Source: a bacterium
GTDB taxonomy: Bacteria > ARS69
Direction: 5' to 3'
NCBI GenBank assembly: GCA_025774865.1
Contig: JALGZO010000652.1
Location: 1-7,233 of the forward strand
Length of the DNA: 7,233 nucleotides
The notes below the pieces were generated by a model. The model saw only the letters and a list, made by a program, of their open reading frames with translations, did no database searches and was not told the DNA's origin. How positions within the stretch are numbered: position 1 is the first letter of the stretch; each line of letters starts with the position of its first letter. Below, piece by piece: positions 2,296 through 7,233 of this stretch. Position numbers and translations under genes: made by a program.

Positions 2296-2829
2296 TCAGG
2301 TCAGCGCGCGAACACCGAGGCTGGCTAGCCGGTCAGCGGAGGATGAGGCTTTCCAAGAGACTCGAGAGTTCCCCCACGAGCGCAGCGACGAGGCACTGTC
2401 GGCCTGGGCGTGCGCCGACGGTCGGGGTCGGGCTCTCATCTGCGTGAGGGACCGGAGCGTCTCGTGGAAGTGGGACAAGCGCGACCCGGACCGGGGGCGC
2501 CGGCGATCGCGCGCGCGGCGGTTTTCCACGGGGAACTCGCGAGAGCGGCGCTCCGCCTCGCGCCGTTCGGGGCCGCCCCAGCCCCGGCCGGTGAGTGCCC
2601 TTCTCGGCGAGATCGCCTTCACGACGATTGCCACGACGGCCAAGAGTGGCGTGAGGAGCGCGAGCGCCCCGGCGGAGAGAAGAACGTCGACCTCGCGACG
2701 CAGGGAGTCATCGATCAATCCGGAAGCGGCACGGGGCCCGTGCGGATACCGAAATGACGGGTCGACCGACACGGACCGATGTCGACCGTCGGCGGGGATT
2801 CGAGATTTGTCCAGGGGTACTGAGCGCAT
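2296..2829 (-). CDS. Small basic membrane ORF with a phosphoglycosyl-transferase-like re-entrant helix, no catalytic domain
   Basis: This is a candidate 177-residue protein that I cannot assign with certainty. Residues 44-75 read RREVD, a hydrophobic stretch with a central Thr-Pro (60-61), then VVKAISP. That spacing matches the N-terminal membrane-re-entrant helix of monotopic sugar-phosphate transferases (PglC/WcaJ type, KRxxD...SPLL...xVKxxSPG). The catalytic domain is absent. An Arg-rich segment follows (88-111: PERREAERR, ENRRARDRRR) and then a low-complexity tail. Third-position G/C is high through the helix and Arg-rich part. In the tail another minus frame, closing at 2333, looks equally or more protein-like, so a frameshift near 2470-2520 is possible. 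ATG 2829 was chosen because it lies about 34 bases after the predicted start of the sigma-54-type promoter and has a weak GAG 8 bases upstream; a GTG further in is possible. It lies 95 bases ahead of the ABC genes in the same direction. It may be a truncated transferase (pseudogene), an orphan membrane anchor, or not a gene. Confidence 0.42.
   Translation of the reverse strand: MRSVPLDKSRIPADGRHRSVSVDPSFRYPHGPRAASGLIDDSLRREVDVLLSAGALALLTPLLAVVAIVVKAISPRRALTGRGWGGPERREAERRSREFPVENRRARDRRRPRSGSRLSHFHETLRSLTQMRARPRPSAHAQADSASSLRSWGNSRVSWKASSSADRLASLGVRALT
2729..2743. repeat. 15-base palindrome with 7-bp arms
   Basis: GCACGGG, one central base and CCCGTGC form a perfect dyad inside the 5' part of the small membrane ORF, downstream of the minus-strand sigma-54-type promoter. 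It could be an operator or chance in GC-rich DNA. No other copy was noticed in the window. Confidence 0.4.
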
Positions 2830-2873
2830 CAGCTGTTCTCGGGCGGCGGGGAACGGGCGCGTGAGGACGTTTT

Positions 2874-2889
2874 TGCAAGAGGGGGGCCA
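2874..2889 (-). promoter_or_regulatory. Sigma-54-type (-24/-12) promoter facing the small membrane ORF and ABC genes
   Basis: The minus strand reads TGGCCCCCCTCTTGCA. GG and GC are separated by exactly 10 bases, and 10 of the 12 defined positions of the sigma-54 consensus TGGCACG-N4-TTGCW match. The -12 GC is at 2876-2875, which predicts transcription starting near 2863, about 34 bases before the ATG at 2829. An NtrC-family activator is encoded in the same window. No strong palindromic activator site was found upstream of this element. Weaker than the 5150-5165 promoter, because the run of C could create a chance match. Confidence 0.55.
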
Positions 2890-3110
2890 GGTTCGGCGCG
2901 TTGATCGTTCGCGGAATTTCCTGCTGATGCTGGGGATTCCTTGGATGTTCTGAGACGTCGTCCGTGCTGGGCTCGAGATCGGGTTGCTCGCTGGGGGGAA
3001 TGGCCCCACGCGGCCTGGGGGTCTTTTCCCAACGCGTCCACCGCGACGGAGCGGTACATTGATCGGATGACGATGCACCAGAGCCCGATGCCGCGTCGCG
3101 GCTCCTCGGG
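2890..3110. other. Divergent intergenic region
   Basis: This is the regulatory gap between the leftward and rightward units. No convincing sigma-70 promoter for the rightward gene could be picked; TACATT near 3055 is a possible -10 with no matching -35. Inexact dyads are present, including GGAAT...ATTCC around 2911-2940 and CCCCA...TGGGG around 3004-3020. A perfect 13-base palindrome, GCCGCG-T-CGCGGC, lies at 3090-3102, ending 8 bases before the ATG at 3111 where a Shine-Dalgarno sequence would be expected. It might limit ribosome access or serve as an operator. Confidence 0.35.
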
Positions 3111-4082
3111 ATGAGCAAAGGAGTCGCAGCGGCTCTCCGTCTCGTGGTGGGTCTGGGAGCCCTGACCTTCCTCGTCATGCGGATGGAGCCGGGCCGGGCC
3201 TGGGCGGTGCTATCGTCGTCGGATCCGAAGTGGCTCCTCGTCGCCCTGGCCGCGCAGGTCGGGTCCAAGGCCTGCTGGATCCTGCGCTGGAGGACGCTTC
3301 TGGCGTCGACGGGTCATCGGCGCGGCCTGGGCGAGCTCTTGCGGCTCATCCTCCTGGGGCTCTTCTTCAACAACTTCCTGCCAACTTCGGTCGGGGGCGA
3401 CGTTGCCCGGGGGCTGGGTCTCGCTGCTCGCGGGGTGCCGCGAGCGACCGCCGCGGCTTCGGTGGTCGGAGACCGGTTGATCGGGCTGCTGGCGCTGGGG
3501 ATCATGGCGGTCGTCGGCGGAGTGATCGGCACGGTGTTATGGCCGGGCGAAGGACCGTGGATGACCGCCGGTGTCTTCGCGCTGGCCGTCGTCGGCTTGA
3601 TCGTCGGTCTCACGAGGCCGGAGGTTCTCGATCGTTTCGCGCGCTCCCGCTTCGTGCCCGACGTGGGAGGGCTGCCGGGGAAGGTCCAGAGAGTGCTATC
3701 GGGGGTCTCGTTCCTGGCCGCGCGCGGCCCGACCACCAGCCGGGCCCTGGTGTTCTCGCTGGGGCTGTCCGCCTGCTCGGCGGTTTACCACTGGTCCATC
3801 GGAAGGGCGGTCGGCATCTCGATGGGGCTCACGGCGTATTTCGTCATCGTCCCGGCGGTCATGATCGTCGCCGCGCTCCCCATCACGATGAATGGGCTCG
3901 GGATTCGCGAGCTCGGTTTCGTGGGGCTGCTCGGTGCCCAGGGGATCCCGAGCGAGACGGCGACGGTGTTCGCCCTGTTGGCGTTCGTCGGGACACTGGG
4001 GTTCGCAGTCGCGGGCGGGCTCCTCTTCGTGGCGGGCGTGCGATCGTCGACCCGTGACCGTGCCGGGGCCGAAGAGGTTTGA
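3111..4082 (+). CDS. LPG-synthase-TM / UPF0104 flippase-like membrane protein, copy 1
   Basis: This 323-residue polytopic inner-membrane protein has about eight hydrophobic segments. It carries the hallmarks of the lysylphosphatidylglycerol-synthase transmembrane family (UPF0104, YbhN-like, related to the MprF flippase domain): FFNNFLPTSVGGDVAR at 85-100, a DR pair at 121-122, and PITMNGLGIRELG at 257-269 near the C-terminus. There is no aminoacyl-transferase domain, so it is not a complete MprF. Stand-alone members are often found with lipid or cell-surface-glycan genes and are suspected to move lipid-linked substrates; the exact reaction here is unknown. The ATG at 3111 is the first possible start after an in-frame stop near 3060. 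It lacks a recognisable Shine-Dalgarno sequence and follows a palindrome (3090-3102). It is coupled to its paralogue by a 4-base overlap. Confidence 0.92.
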   Translation: MSKGVAAALRLVVGLGALTFLVMRMEPGRAWAVLSSSDPKWLLVALAAQVGSKACWILRWRTLLASTGHRRGLGELLRLILLGLFFNNFLPTSVGGDVARGLGLAARGVPRATAAASVVGDRLIGLLALGIMAVVGGVIGTVLWPGEGPWMTAGVFALAVVGLIVGLTRPEVLDRFARSRFVPDVGGLPGKVQRVLSGVSFLAARGPTTSRALVFSLGLSACSAVYHWSIGRAVGISMGLTAYFVIVPAVMIVAALPITMNGLGIRELGFVGLLGAQGIPSETATVFALLAFVGTLGFAVAGGLLFVAGVRSSTRDRAGAEEV

Positions 4083-5014
4083 CTCGGCGATCCCGGGGCG
4101 GGCTGGCGTGGAAGCTCGGCGTCAGCCTCCTGCTCGTGGGCATCCTGGGCTGGCGGTACGGTGGGGACGCGCGATTCCAGGCGACCCTGTCCGAGCTCGA
4201 TGCCGTTTCCTTCCTGCTGGCGACCGCGGTTCTGGCGGTGGGGCTTCTGCTGTCGGCGCTGCGATGGAAGATCCTGCTCGCAGCGGCGGGCGTCTCGTTG
4301 TCGTTGCGTCGGTCGATCCGCCTCTACTTCGTGGGCTACTTCTTCAACTTCTTCCTCCCGACGACGGTGGGCGGGGACGTCGCCCGCGCGATGGGCGTCG
4401 GTCGCGGCACGCCGTTGCCCGTGGTCGGAGGATCGATCCTGGTCGAGAGGTTTCTCGGGTTCGGATGCCTCCTCGTGATGGGCATCGTCGCGAGCTTCAC
4501 GGTCGAGTCGCTCTCCGTGGCGAGACGGGTCCTCGCGCTCGCCGCGGCCGCCTTCGCCGGGGGGTTGGCGGTAGTCCTCTTCGTGCCGTTACCCGAGGTC
4601 CGGGCCGAGGGCATCGTTGGCCGTGTTCTCGAAGGGCTGCGGAAGACCGCGATCGAAGTTCGCGCCTACGGCTTCCACGCACGTGCGCTCGGTTGGGGGG
4701 TCGTGCTCTCGGTCGGGTGGCAACTTGCGCTCGTCGTGGCGAACGCGACGCTGTCGCACGCGCTCGGCGGAGTTGCTCCGGTGCGAAGTCTTCTGGCGCT
4801 CGTGCCCGTCGTGCAAGCGATCACGATGATTCCGGTCAGCTTCGGAGGACTCGGGATCCGCGAAATGGGGTACGAGTTCTTCTTCCGGGCGTCGGGGTAC
4901 GACCCGGCCGGCGCGGTAGCGCTCGGCGTGGGGTTTCTCGGCGTGACCATCGCGCTCGCTCTGGCCGGCGGAGTCGCGTACCTCGTCCGGCCGATCCGGG
5001 ATGCGGACGAGTGA
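4079..5014 (+). CDS. LPG-synthase-TM / UPF0104 flippase-like membrane protein, copy 2
   Basis: This 311-residue paralogue of the preceding gene has the same topology and matching motifs: FFNFFLPTTVGGDVAR at 88-103, an ER pair at 123-124 (DR in copy 1), and PVSFGGLGIREMG at 252-264. The start is TTG at 4079-4081, overlapping the TGA of copy 1 (TTGA), the only sensible start given the N-terminal basic stretch MTRRSRGG followed by TM1. AAGAGG sits only one base upstream of TTG, too close for ideal initiation, so translation probably relies on re-initiation by ribosomes finishing copy 1. The two proteins have clearly diverged outside the motifs, so this is an old duplication or the assembly of two family members, possibly a heteromer or a pair with different substrates. 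The function is inferred from family only. Confidence 0.9.
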   Translation: MTRRSRGGLAWKLGVSLLLVGILGWRYGGDARFQATLSELDAVSFLLATAVLAVGLLLSALRWKILLAAAGVSLSLRRSIRLYFVGYFFNFFLPTTVGGDVARAMGVGRGTPLPVVGGSILVERFLGFGCLLVMGIVASFTVESLSVARRVLALAAAAFAGGLAVVLFVPLPEVRAEGIVGRVLEGLRKTAIEVRAYGFHARALGWGVVLSVGWQLALVVANATLSHALGGVAPVRSLLALVPVVQAITMIPVSFGGLGIREMGYEFFFRASGYDPAGAVALGVGFLGVTIALALAGGVAYLVRPIRDADE

Positions 5015-5061: not shown

Positions 5062-5076
5062 GTCGCAAAATGCGAC
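5062..5076. promoter_or_regulatory. Palindromic upstream activator site (candidate enhancer) for the sigma-54 promoter
   Basis: GTCGCA-AAA-TGCGAC is a perfect dyad with 6-bp arms and a 3-base A-rich centre. Its centre is about 107 bases before the predicted transcription start near 5176, within the usual range for NtrC-type enhancer sites. A further TCGCA half-site lies at 5082-5086. It is the best candidate for binding by the Fis-type HTH of the downstream activator (autoregulation); this is inferred from position and symmetry. Confidence 0.5.
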
Positions 5077-5149
5077 CTGGCTCGCAGAAAGAAGCGTGAC
5101 GGTCTTGCGTTCCCTGCGCGACGTTGGGACATCGACGATCAATCTTGGG

Positions 5150-5165
5150 TGGCACGGAATCTGCA
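5150..5165 (+). promoter_or_regulatory. Sigma-54 (-24/-12) promoter of the activator gene
   Basis: TGGCACGGAATCTGCA matches 11 of the 12 defined positions of the consensus TGGCACG-N4-TTGCW. GG (5151-5152) and GC (5163-5164) are exactly 10 bases apart. Transcription should start near 5176, leaving a leader of about 44 bases that contains the GGGGAG ribosome-binding site. A sigma-54 promoter directly before a sigma-54 activator suggests positive autoregulation. Confidence 0.8.
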
Positions 5166-5219: not shown

Positions 5220-6653
5220 ATGAAGAGGATTCTGATCATCGATCCCGATGCGTCGTATCGCGGTAAGGTGCGAGTCGCGCTCGAGTCTTTGGCCTGTGAC
5301 GTGGTCGCGCTGGAGAGTGTCGGTGAGGCATCCCGTGCGCTGATTGAAGAGTCGCCGGCGCTCGTGATCTCGGGCTACGACCAGCCTCGTGAAGAGGAGC
5401 TCGATCTCCTGCGCCTCGCGCGCAAGGGCAGCCACCCGGTGCCCGTGCTCGTGCTCGCGCGAGAAGGAAGCACGCGCGGTGCGATCGACTTCATGGACGC
5501 AGGCGCCTACGACTACCTCCGTCGCCCTGACGTGACCGAACTCCGCGCGGTGGTCGAAGATATCCTGCGATTGTCGGGGGAGGACTCGAGCTCGGTGGAT
5601 TTGCCCGACGAGCGCGAGGGTGAGGCGGCCAAGATCATCGGGTCGAGCGCGGAGATGATCGAGATCTACAAGCTGATCGGACGCATCGCGAAGTCGGACG
5701 CCGCCGTGCTCGTTCAGGGTGAGAGCGGAACGGGCAAGGAGCTCGTGGCCAGGACGATCCACGAGAACAGTCGGCGCGCCAATCGCTCGTTTCTCGCCGT
5801 GAACTGCGCGGCGATCCCCGAAACGCTTCTCGAGAGCGAGCTGTTCGGTCACGAGAGGGGCGCGTTCACCGGAGCGTCCTACTCGCGCAAGGGCAAGTTC
5901 GAGCTCAGTCACGGCGGCACGATCTTTCTCGACGAAGTGGGCGACATGAGCCTGCCCACGCAGGCGAAGATCCTGCGCGTCCTTCAGGAGCAGACGTTCG
6001 AGAGAGTCGGCGGCGAACAGACGCTGACGTCCGACGCACGAATCATCGCGGCGACGAACAAGAGCCTGGTCGAGTGCATCGAGTCGAACGCGTTCCGCGT
6101 GGATCTCTTCTACCGGCTCAAGGTCGTCTCCATCTTCCTGCCATCGCTCCGGAAACGTCCGGGCGACGTGGCGCTCCTCGTGGATCACTTCATCCGCAAG
6201 TACCATCGCGAGTCGAAGATCTCGATCCGCGGCATCTCTCGTCGCGCCCGCCTGTATCTCGAAGCCCAGCCTTGGACCGGCAACGTGCGCGAGCTGGAGA
6301 ACGCGATCCAAACTGCGGTGGTCCTCAACCGCACCGGCACGCTCGACGTGGAGGACTTTCCGTTCCTGCGGGACCACTCGGGCTCCGGCGGCGGAGCGAC
6401 GGGGCCGAACGTTCTGGAGCGACTCCGTGAGGAAGCTCGTCGAGCGGCGAATGTGTTGCTCGCGGACCAAAGCGGCCGGGCTGGCAAGCCCGTGTACCAC
6501 AACTGTGTCGACACGGTGGAGCAGGCGGTTGTGGACGCAGCCCTTCTGCACTGCGCGGGGAATCAGGTGCGGGCGTCCAGAATGCTCGGGATCAGCCGGA
6601 ATACGCTCCGTACCAAGATGAGTCTCGACGATCCGATCCAGGGGGAAGGTTGA
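5220..6653 (+). CDS. Sigma-54-dependent activator, NtrC family, with degenerate receiver domain
   Basis: This 477-residue, three-domain bacterial enhancer-binding protein should hydrolyse ATP to remodel sigma-54 RNA polymerase. Receiver domain, about 1-115: the acidic pair D8/D10 is present. Aligned to LVLLDIRMP, the stretch LVISGYDQP puts Gly52 at the phosphoacceptor position, with Asp54 two residues on. The switch Thr is Ala80 and the conserved Lys is Arg102, so normal phosphorylation is unlikely. AAA+ domain, about 138-380: Walker A GESGTGKE (167-174), intact sigma-54-contact loop GAFTGA (214-219), Walker B IFLDE (235-239), sensor-I ATN (278-280), FRVDLFYRL with candidate Arg fingers R293/R299, and sensor-II GNVRELEN (354-361). 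C-terminus: Fis-type HTH, NQVRASRMLGISRNTLRTKM (448-467). MKRILIIDPD is a typical receiver start, and GGGGAG lies 9 bases upstream. No histidine kinase is adjacent. It probably activates its own promoter and perhaps the 2889-2874 promoter. Confidence 0.96.
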   Translation: MKRILIIDPDASYRGKVRVALESLACDVVALESVGEASRALIEESPALVISGYDQPREEELDLLRLARKGSHPVPVLVLAREGSTRGAIDFMDAGAYDYLRRPDVTELRAVVEDILRLSGEDSSSVDLPDEREGEAAKIIGSSAEMIEIYKLIGRIAKSDAAVLVQGESGTGKELVARTIHENSRRANRSFLAVNCAAIPETLLESELFGHERGAFTGASYSRKGKFELSHGGTIFLDEVGDMSLPTQAKILRVLQEQTFERVGGEQTLTSDARIIAATNKSLVECIESNAFRVDLFYRLKVVSIFLPSLRKRPGDVALLVDHFIRKYHRESKISIRGISRRARLYLEAQPWTGNVRELENAIQTAVVLNRTGTLDVEDFPFLRDHSGSGGGATGPNVLERLREEARRAANVLLADQSGRAGKPVYHNCVDTVEQAVVDAALLHCAGNQVRASRMLGISRNTLRTKMSLDDPIQGEG

Positions 6654-6886: not shown

Positions 6887-6893
6887 CATGTCG

Positions 6894-7233
6894 GTGGAAG
6901 CTTCGGTCCGTCAGGAACGGGATCTCACAGTCGTTCGCCTTTCGGGAAAGATTCTGGGTGGTCACGAATCGGACGTGCTCAGGAAGGAGCTCGACCGACT
7001 CTTCGAACGAGGCGATCAGCGTCTCCTGGTGGATTTGACCGAAGTCCCGTGGATGAACAGCGCGGGTCTGGGCATACTGCTCTCAGCCTACTCCCGCATG
7101 AAGGATCGAGGCGGGGTGATCCGTTTCTCGGGGGCCGGGGAGCGGGTTCGAGGTATCCTCAACACGACCAAACTTCTCACGGTCCTGGAAGTTCATGACG
7201 ATGAAGAGTCAGGAATCCAGAGCTTCTCCGTGG
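6894..7233 (+). CDS. STAS-domain anti-sigma-factor antagonist (SpoIIAA/RsbV-like), 3' end outside window
   Basis: The visible 113 codons cover almost a whole STAS domain: beta strands in EASVRQERDLTVVRLSGKI, then the helix SDVLRKELDRLFERG, then LLVDLTEVPWMNSAGLGILL. Proteins of this type bind an RsbW/SpoIIAB-like anti-sigma kinase and free a sigma factor, and are switched off by serine phosphorylation in the DSxG loop. Here the loop reads NSAG: the phosphoacceptor Ser is kept (Ser56 from the GTG start), the preceding Asp is Asn, and the following residue is Ala. The downstream helix (GERVRGILNTTKL) and last strand (TVLEVHDDEESGIQSF) are also typical. The frame is closed by TAA about 55 bases upstream, leaving ATG 6888 or GTG 6894 as starts; I chose GTG for its Shine-Dalgarno spacing. 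No kinase or phosphatase partner is visible, but one may follow beyond the edge. Confidence 0.92.
   Translation, partial: MEASVRQERDLTVVRLSGKILGGHESDVLRKELDRLFERGDQRLLVDLTEVPWMNSAGLGILLSAYSRMKDRGGVIRFSGAGERVRGILNTTKLLTVLEVHDDEESGIQSFSV

Follow-up and report, generated by a model that had tools for sequence, protein, structure and literature searches.

A sigma-54 activator with a pseudo-receiver domain, preceded by a predicted sigma-54 promoter and a conserved palindrome and linked to XrtA-type exopolysaccharide loci

FleQ and FlrA are pseudo-receiver sigma-54 activators of flagella and exopolysaccharide (EPS) genes, and FleQ also governs biofilm genes. RitR, HP1021 and ChxR likewise act without phosphate. 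Pseudo-receivers are common, at approximately 4-13% of receivers in estimates that differ from one another; many dimerize without phosphate, and receivers of the NtrC family pair via alpha4beta5 (PMC12632262). How bacterial pseudo-receivers are switched is an open question according to the same 2025 review (PMC12632262). For PEP-CTERM genes, a layout of an upstream motif, about 63 nt and a sigma-54 promoter has been described (PMC1569441).

Here we analyzed a 7,233-nt stretch of bacterial DNA (the window), in which an earlier note had picked out a sigma-54 activator with an altered receiver. The features of a sigma-54 enhancer-binding protein (GAFTGA loop, Walker A and B, HTH) are all present in the 477-aa product. 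Pfam gave a strong Sigma54_activat match at residues 139-305, an AAA lid at 311-382 and HTH_8 at 432-467, and a receiver match at residues 4-112 that is weak but over threshold (34.3 bits versus a cut-off of 30.2). As judged from its sequence, the motor and DNA-binding parts are thus intact (GESGTGKE, GAFTGA, LDE and the Fis-type HTH were all seen), as the earlier note had held. We rejected an earlier start, a TTG at 5124, because the extension would contain the promoter.

Table 1. Features of the window, with positions counted from its first nucleotide.
Feature	Position	Strand	Basis or remark
Flippase-like membrane protein	3111..4082	+	Pfam; ortholog within G002 exosortase locus
Second flippase-like membrane protein	4079..5014	+	Pfam; ortholog within G002 exosortase locus
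Putative palindromic upstream activating site, GTCGCA-AAA-TGCGAC	5062..5076	+	core kept in 5/5 orthologs
Predicted sigma-54 (-24/-12) promoter, TGGCACGGAATCTGCA	5150..5165	+	pattern kept in 4/5 orthologs
NtrC-like sigma-54 activator with pseudo-receiver	5220..6653	+	477-aa ORF and profile matches
Pseudo-receiver domain, residues 1-117 (P9, G52, A80, R102; family-specific C26 and D93)	5220..5570	+	
G52 codon, phosphoacceptor position	5373..5375	+	alignment
Linker, lacking the helical, heptad-like continuation of most intact paralogs	5571..5630	+	inspection
AAA+ sigma-54 interaction domain with GESGTGKE, GAFTGA and LDE	5634..6134	+	Pfam
Fis-type helix-turn-helix	6513..6620	+	Pfam
STAS protein (anti-sigma factor antagonist type), runs off contig	6888..7232	+	ortholog in G002 exosortase locus

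Alignment to solved receivers and to receivers from the same genomes places G52, A80 and R102 in the columns of the phosphoacceptor Asp, the switch Thr and the Lys, in agreement with the earlier note. Its further statement that D8 and D10 remain holds for D8 only. In the PhoP and NtrC alignments and in 34/34 intact same-genome receivers, position 9 holds the second acid of the pair (DD); this position is Pro9 here and D10, the third position, lies outside the pair, leaving one of the five catalytic residues. The second acid is the one that binds metal directly (PMC12632262), and in the orthologs its column holds Pro, Arg or Ser.

We searched five genomes, which represent five genera of one family within a phylum-level lineage; each carries a single ortholog (61-70% identity to the window protein). 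At the acceptor position, G000 to G004 have G, E, G, V and R, respectively. The Asp is therefore absent from all five orthologs, whereas 35 of the 36 other sigma-54 activator receivers that could be aligned in these genomes have it (41 receivers in total, a large sample rather than a complete count, with about 14 loci left out of the parsing); the only other Asp-less one is the paralog L150. L008 (G000:C457) and L150 (G001:C43) represent a second kind of sigma-54 activator in this lineage, with an Asp-less receiver-like N-terminal domain (LPIQLRD / LPREM). Because the Asp is missing in all five genomes, chance or sequencing error is excluded as the cause, and by sequence the phosphotransfer residues are lost throughout the set. 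The replacements drift over the five orthologs (G/E/R/G/V at the acceptor, A/T/A/A/A at the Thr and R/K/N/K/K at the Lys), so it is the loss itself and no particular substitution that they share; the co-conservation of the exact G/A/R substitutions that the earlier note had proposed to look for was not found. An AAA+ tree built without the receiver unites the five orthologs (SH-aLRT 100), and the homologs read outside this clade carry Asp at the acceptor place, so that the sequences are most simply read as a single ancestral loss.

No sensor kinase adjoins the activator gene, as the earlier note had observed: there is none in the window, and none was detected on the activator contigs of the relatives except in one genome, 23 kb away. 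Moreover, PrsK (TIGR02916) was over cut-off in none of the five genomes, some of which are incomplete (best approximately 114 bits versus a cut-off of 300). Three results strongly support the suggestion that the activator is unlikely to be controlled by ordinary phosphotransfer: the loss is fixed in the lineage, the Mg-binding acid is missing as well, and the searches turned up no kinase that is adjacent or of the PrsK type.

The receiver is nevertheless under constraint. Identity among the orthologs is 0.52 in the receiver versus 0.81 in the AAA+ domain, and the receiver/AAA+ distance ratio is 2.97, compared with 0.99-1.91 for seven groups of orthologs with intact receivers from these genomes; relative to AAA+, the receiver diverges about twice as fast as intact receivers, and its constraint therefore appears relaxed, not lost. 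Thirty-four receiver columns are invariant across the five genera. Conservation is highest in beta4 (0.94), followed by the alpha4beta5-beta5 segment (0.81) and alpha4 (0.71), and lowest in the old acceptor loop (0.32). Family-specific conserved residues of alpha4/beta5 include G87, M92, D93 (mostly K/R in intact receivers) and GAYDY; Y97 and Y99 are invariant. C26, placed like D54 by alignment and secondary structure, is conserved in 5/5 orthologs, whereas the same position is aromatic or His in 34/34 intact paralogs. An AlphaFold model of the receiver (mean pLDDT 94.6) matches solved receivers with a best Z of about 18, indicating that the receiver fold is retained; the full-length model (mean pLDDT 49.9) is poor beyond the receiver, and its use was limited to that domain.

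In four of the five genomes, the activator gene lies within an XrtA/exosortase-type EPS locus. XrtA-system families over cut-off beside the orthologs are TIGR03087, TIGR03006, TIGR03019 and exosortase. The next gene after the activator in the four relatives encodes the XrtA-system glycosyltransferase TIGR03087, over cut-off; in G001 and G003 there are also, no more than a few kilobases further on, an XrtA-type deacetylase and an exosortase, and FemAB (TIGR03019) is on the activator's contig in 4/4 relatives. Because both flippase-like genes and the STAS gene of the window have close relatives in the G002 EPS locus, the window locus corresponds in part, by synteny of these neighbors only, to that locus but lacks its exosortase block. 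Searches of the window genome found neither exosortase nor FemAB, and for stp1 they recovered only a paralog fragment (36%); this genome is 92.65% complete, so the missing block is no proof of absence. Small PEP-CTERM proteins number one or two per genome in G001-G004 (L137, L138, L139, L140, L142), a low number for an exosortase system. In the exosortase locus of G002, the STAS gene is followed by a GAF-GGDEF gene (L135, 16486-18173), a possible c-di-GMP input. In the window, an ORF on the reverse strand (2296-3078) has no Pfam match; on visual inspection, its central part looks like the membrane segment of a sugar transferase of the bactoprenyl type.

Upstream of the activator gene, the pattern TGGCACGGAAnCTGCW stands 66-70 nt 5' of the start codon in four of the five orthologs and is degenerate in G003. 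All five orthologs have a GCAnnnTGC core 81-98 nt 5' of the -24 element, and none of 5000 first-order Markov shuffles shared the core in 5/5 sequences. The scan also recovered pilin genes with sigma-54-like promoters, a useful positive control in view of how pilin genes are regulated. Among the loci examined, a strict palindrome paired with a sigma-54 promoter occurs only at the activator gene. The predicted promoter and the palindrome are thus conserved before this gene as judged from sequence, suggesting that the activator is autoregulated and lending support to the guess in the earlier note that its level is set by autoregulated transcription. No wider regulon can be claimed, because the relaxed sigma-54 pattern was no commoner than its reversed control and none of the 16 examined loci with strict palindromes elsewhere had a good sigma-54 promoter beside it. 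Small PEP-CTERM genes were rejected as activator targets: they lack such a promoter, and the site pair was found at 0/6 of their loci. On many contigs of G002 the palindrome CTCGCACCCTGCGAC recurs, in at least 15 copies; it is probably a dispersed repeat that has nothing to do with the upstream site.

Taken together, we favor, with about even confidence, the explanation that the activator is a phosphorylation-independent, self-activating regulator of EPS genes whose receiver serves as an assembly or docking module. Control is probably exerted by its own protein level or by a binding partner and not by a kinase, because the acceptor is lost, the motor and the gene's own promoter are kept and EPS genes are usually adjacent. 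From these sequence features we infer self-activation and EPS control. The activator would have left two-component control; it would bind its own upstream palindrome and switch on its own transcription unit, and in relatives perhaps the adjacent EPS genes too. Its receiver may act as a phosphorylation-independent assembly module via the conserved beta4-alpha4-beta5 region, as its conservation and the pseudo-receiver review suggest. Output would be set mainly by the amount of activator made, with a supply seeded by read-through from the co-directional upstream genes and then amplified by the sigma-54 loop. A negative input, so far unseen, is likely, because a constitutive self-activator without a brake would lock on. 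We count against this explanation that exosortase, FemAB and a full stp1 were not found in the window genome, that the G003 promoter is degenerate and that the small PEP-CTERM genes have no promoter of this kind.

The leading rival where switch-off is concerned, which we consider somewhat doubtful as the main mode of control, is that an anti-activator or co-activator docks on the conserved alpha4-beta5 face. The family-specific residues of this face would fit such a role, and FleQ-FleN and dephospho-DctD-IIAGlc are precedents comparable in principle (PMC10723142, PMC11077940). However, no regulatory neighbor is conserved, and the next gene in the relatives encodes a glycosyltransferase. Control by a ligand is unlikely; c-di-GMP would be the first candidate, because the GAF-GGDEF gene follows the STAS gene in G002 and EPS genes are common c-di-GMP targets. 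The pseudo-receiver of ShkA binds c-di-GMP on its beta5-alpha5 surface with the involvement of Y338 (PMC7010744), and the invariant Y97 and Y99 point in the same direction, but a Tyr at the beta5 position is common in intact receivers too. Furthermore, the FleQ linker arginine R144, which contacts c-di-GMP (PMC10723142), aligns to A137 here, where the orthologs have T, S, S or G, and we therefore rejected a FleQ-type arginine in this family. Still less likely is redox sensing through the invariant Cys26 at the alpha1-beta2 junction. HP1021, Cj1608 and Abu0127 rely on a Cys of their alpha1-beta2 loop (PMC12632262), and the restriction of C26 to this family is consistent with a similar role; however, C26 differs in position from the DD+19 of these proteins, and a lone Cys there may be merely structural. 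It is very improbable that the receiver is decaying baggage on an activator working like a receiver-less, PspF-like protein: the domain evolves faster, but its length, its modeled fold and its 34 invariant columns have been kept. Least credible of all is residual control by phosphorylation at D54 or another residue, since D54, which lies two residues past the old site and was the alternative acceptor of the earlier note, is found in only 2/5 orthologs and is Asn in the other three, intact receivers usually carry R, N or K at D+2, and the metal-binding acid, the Lys and the Thr have all drifted.

More broadly, we put forward tentatively the possibility of a lineage-wide replacement of the PrsK-PrsR switch, wherein the activator of an exosortase/EPS locus would have dropped kinase and phosphosite and would now receive a new input (a partner, c-di-GMP or thiol redox via C26) via a rebuilt alpha4-beta5 face or another part of the pseudo-receiver. 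The case described here also suggests that exosortase/EPS loci may run without the PrsK kinase. The loss is fixed in the lineage, intact paralogs of the same cell provide built-in controls, the family-specific residues are defined and a self-regulated promoter is predicted; therefore, the pseudo-receiver question should be tractable here by small mutagenesis and reporter tests.

The activator resembles PrsR in its NtrC-like domains, its XrtA/EPS loci and its upstream motif-spacer-sigma-54 promoter, the last of which also recalls the described layout of PEP-CTERM genes (PMC1569441). It scores 352.3 bits against the PrsR model TIGR02915, below the curated cut-off of 502.6. PrsR has an intact receiver (DD, D, T/S and K in 19/19 parsed) and the kinase PrsK as its partner, whereas the activator here has a pseudo-receiver and no PrsK over cut-off; unlike in the PrsR setting, the PEP-CTERM genes here have no upstream site. 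NtrC (TIGR01818) is the best-scoring NCBIfam model over its whole length (402.9 bits), but this is below the cut-off of 558.6, the phospho-Asp is absent and no nitrogen gene was recognised nearby. With RitR, HP1021 and ChxR it shares a receiver fold without a phosphorylation site, but its output is a sigma-54 AAA+ motor and theirs a simple DNA-binding domain. Like FleQ and FlrA, it is a sigma-54 activator with a non-phosphorylated pseudo-receiver, although the neighboring stretches that were read contained no recognizable FleN-like or flagellar gene. Activators with a pseudo-receiver, FleQ among them, are an already known kind; what is new here is the conserved predicted sigma-54 promoter with its putative palindrome, and the linkage to XrtA/PEP-CTERM exopolysaccharide loci.
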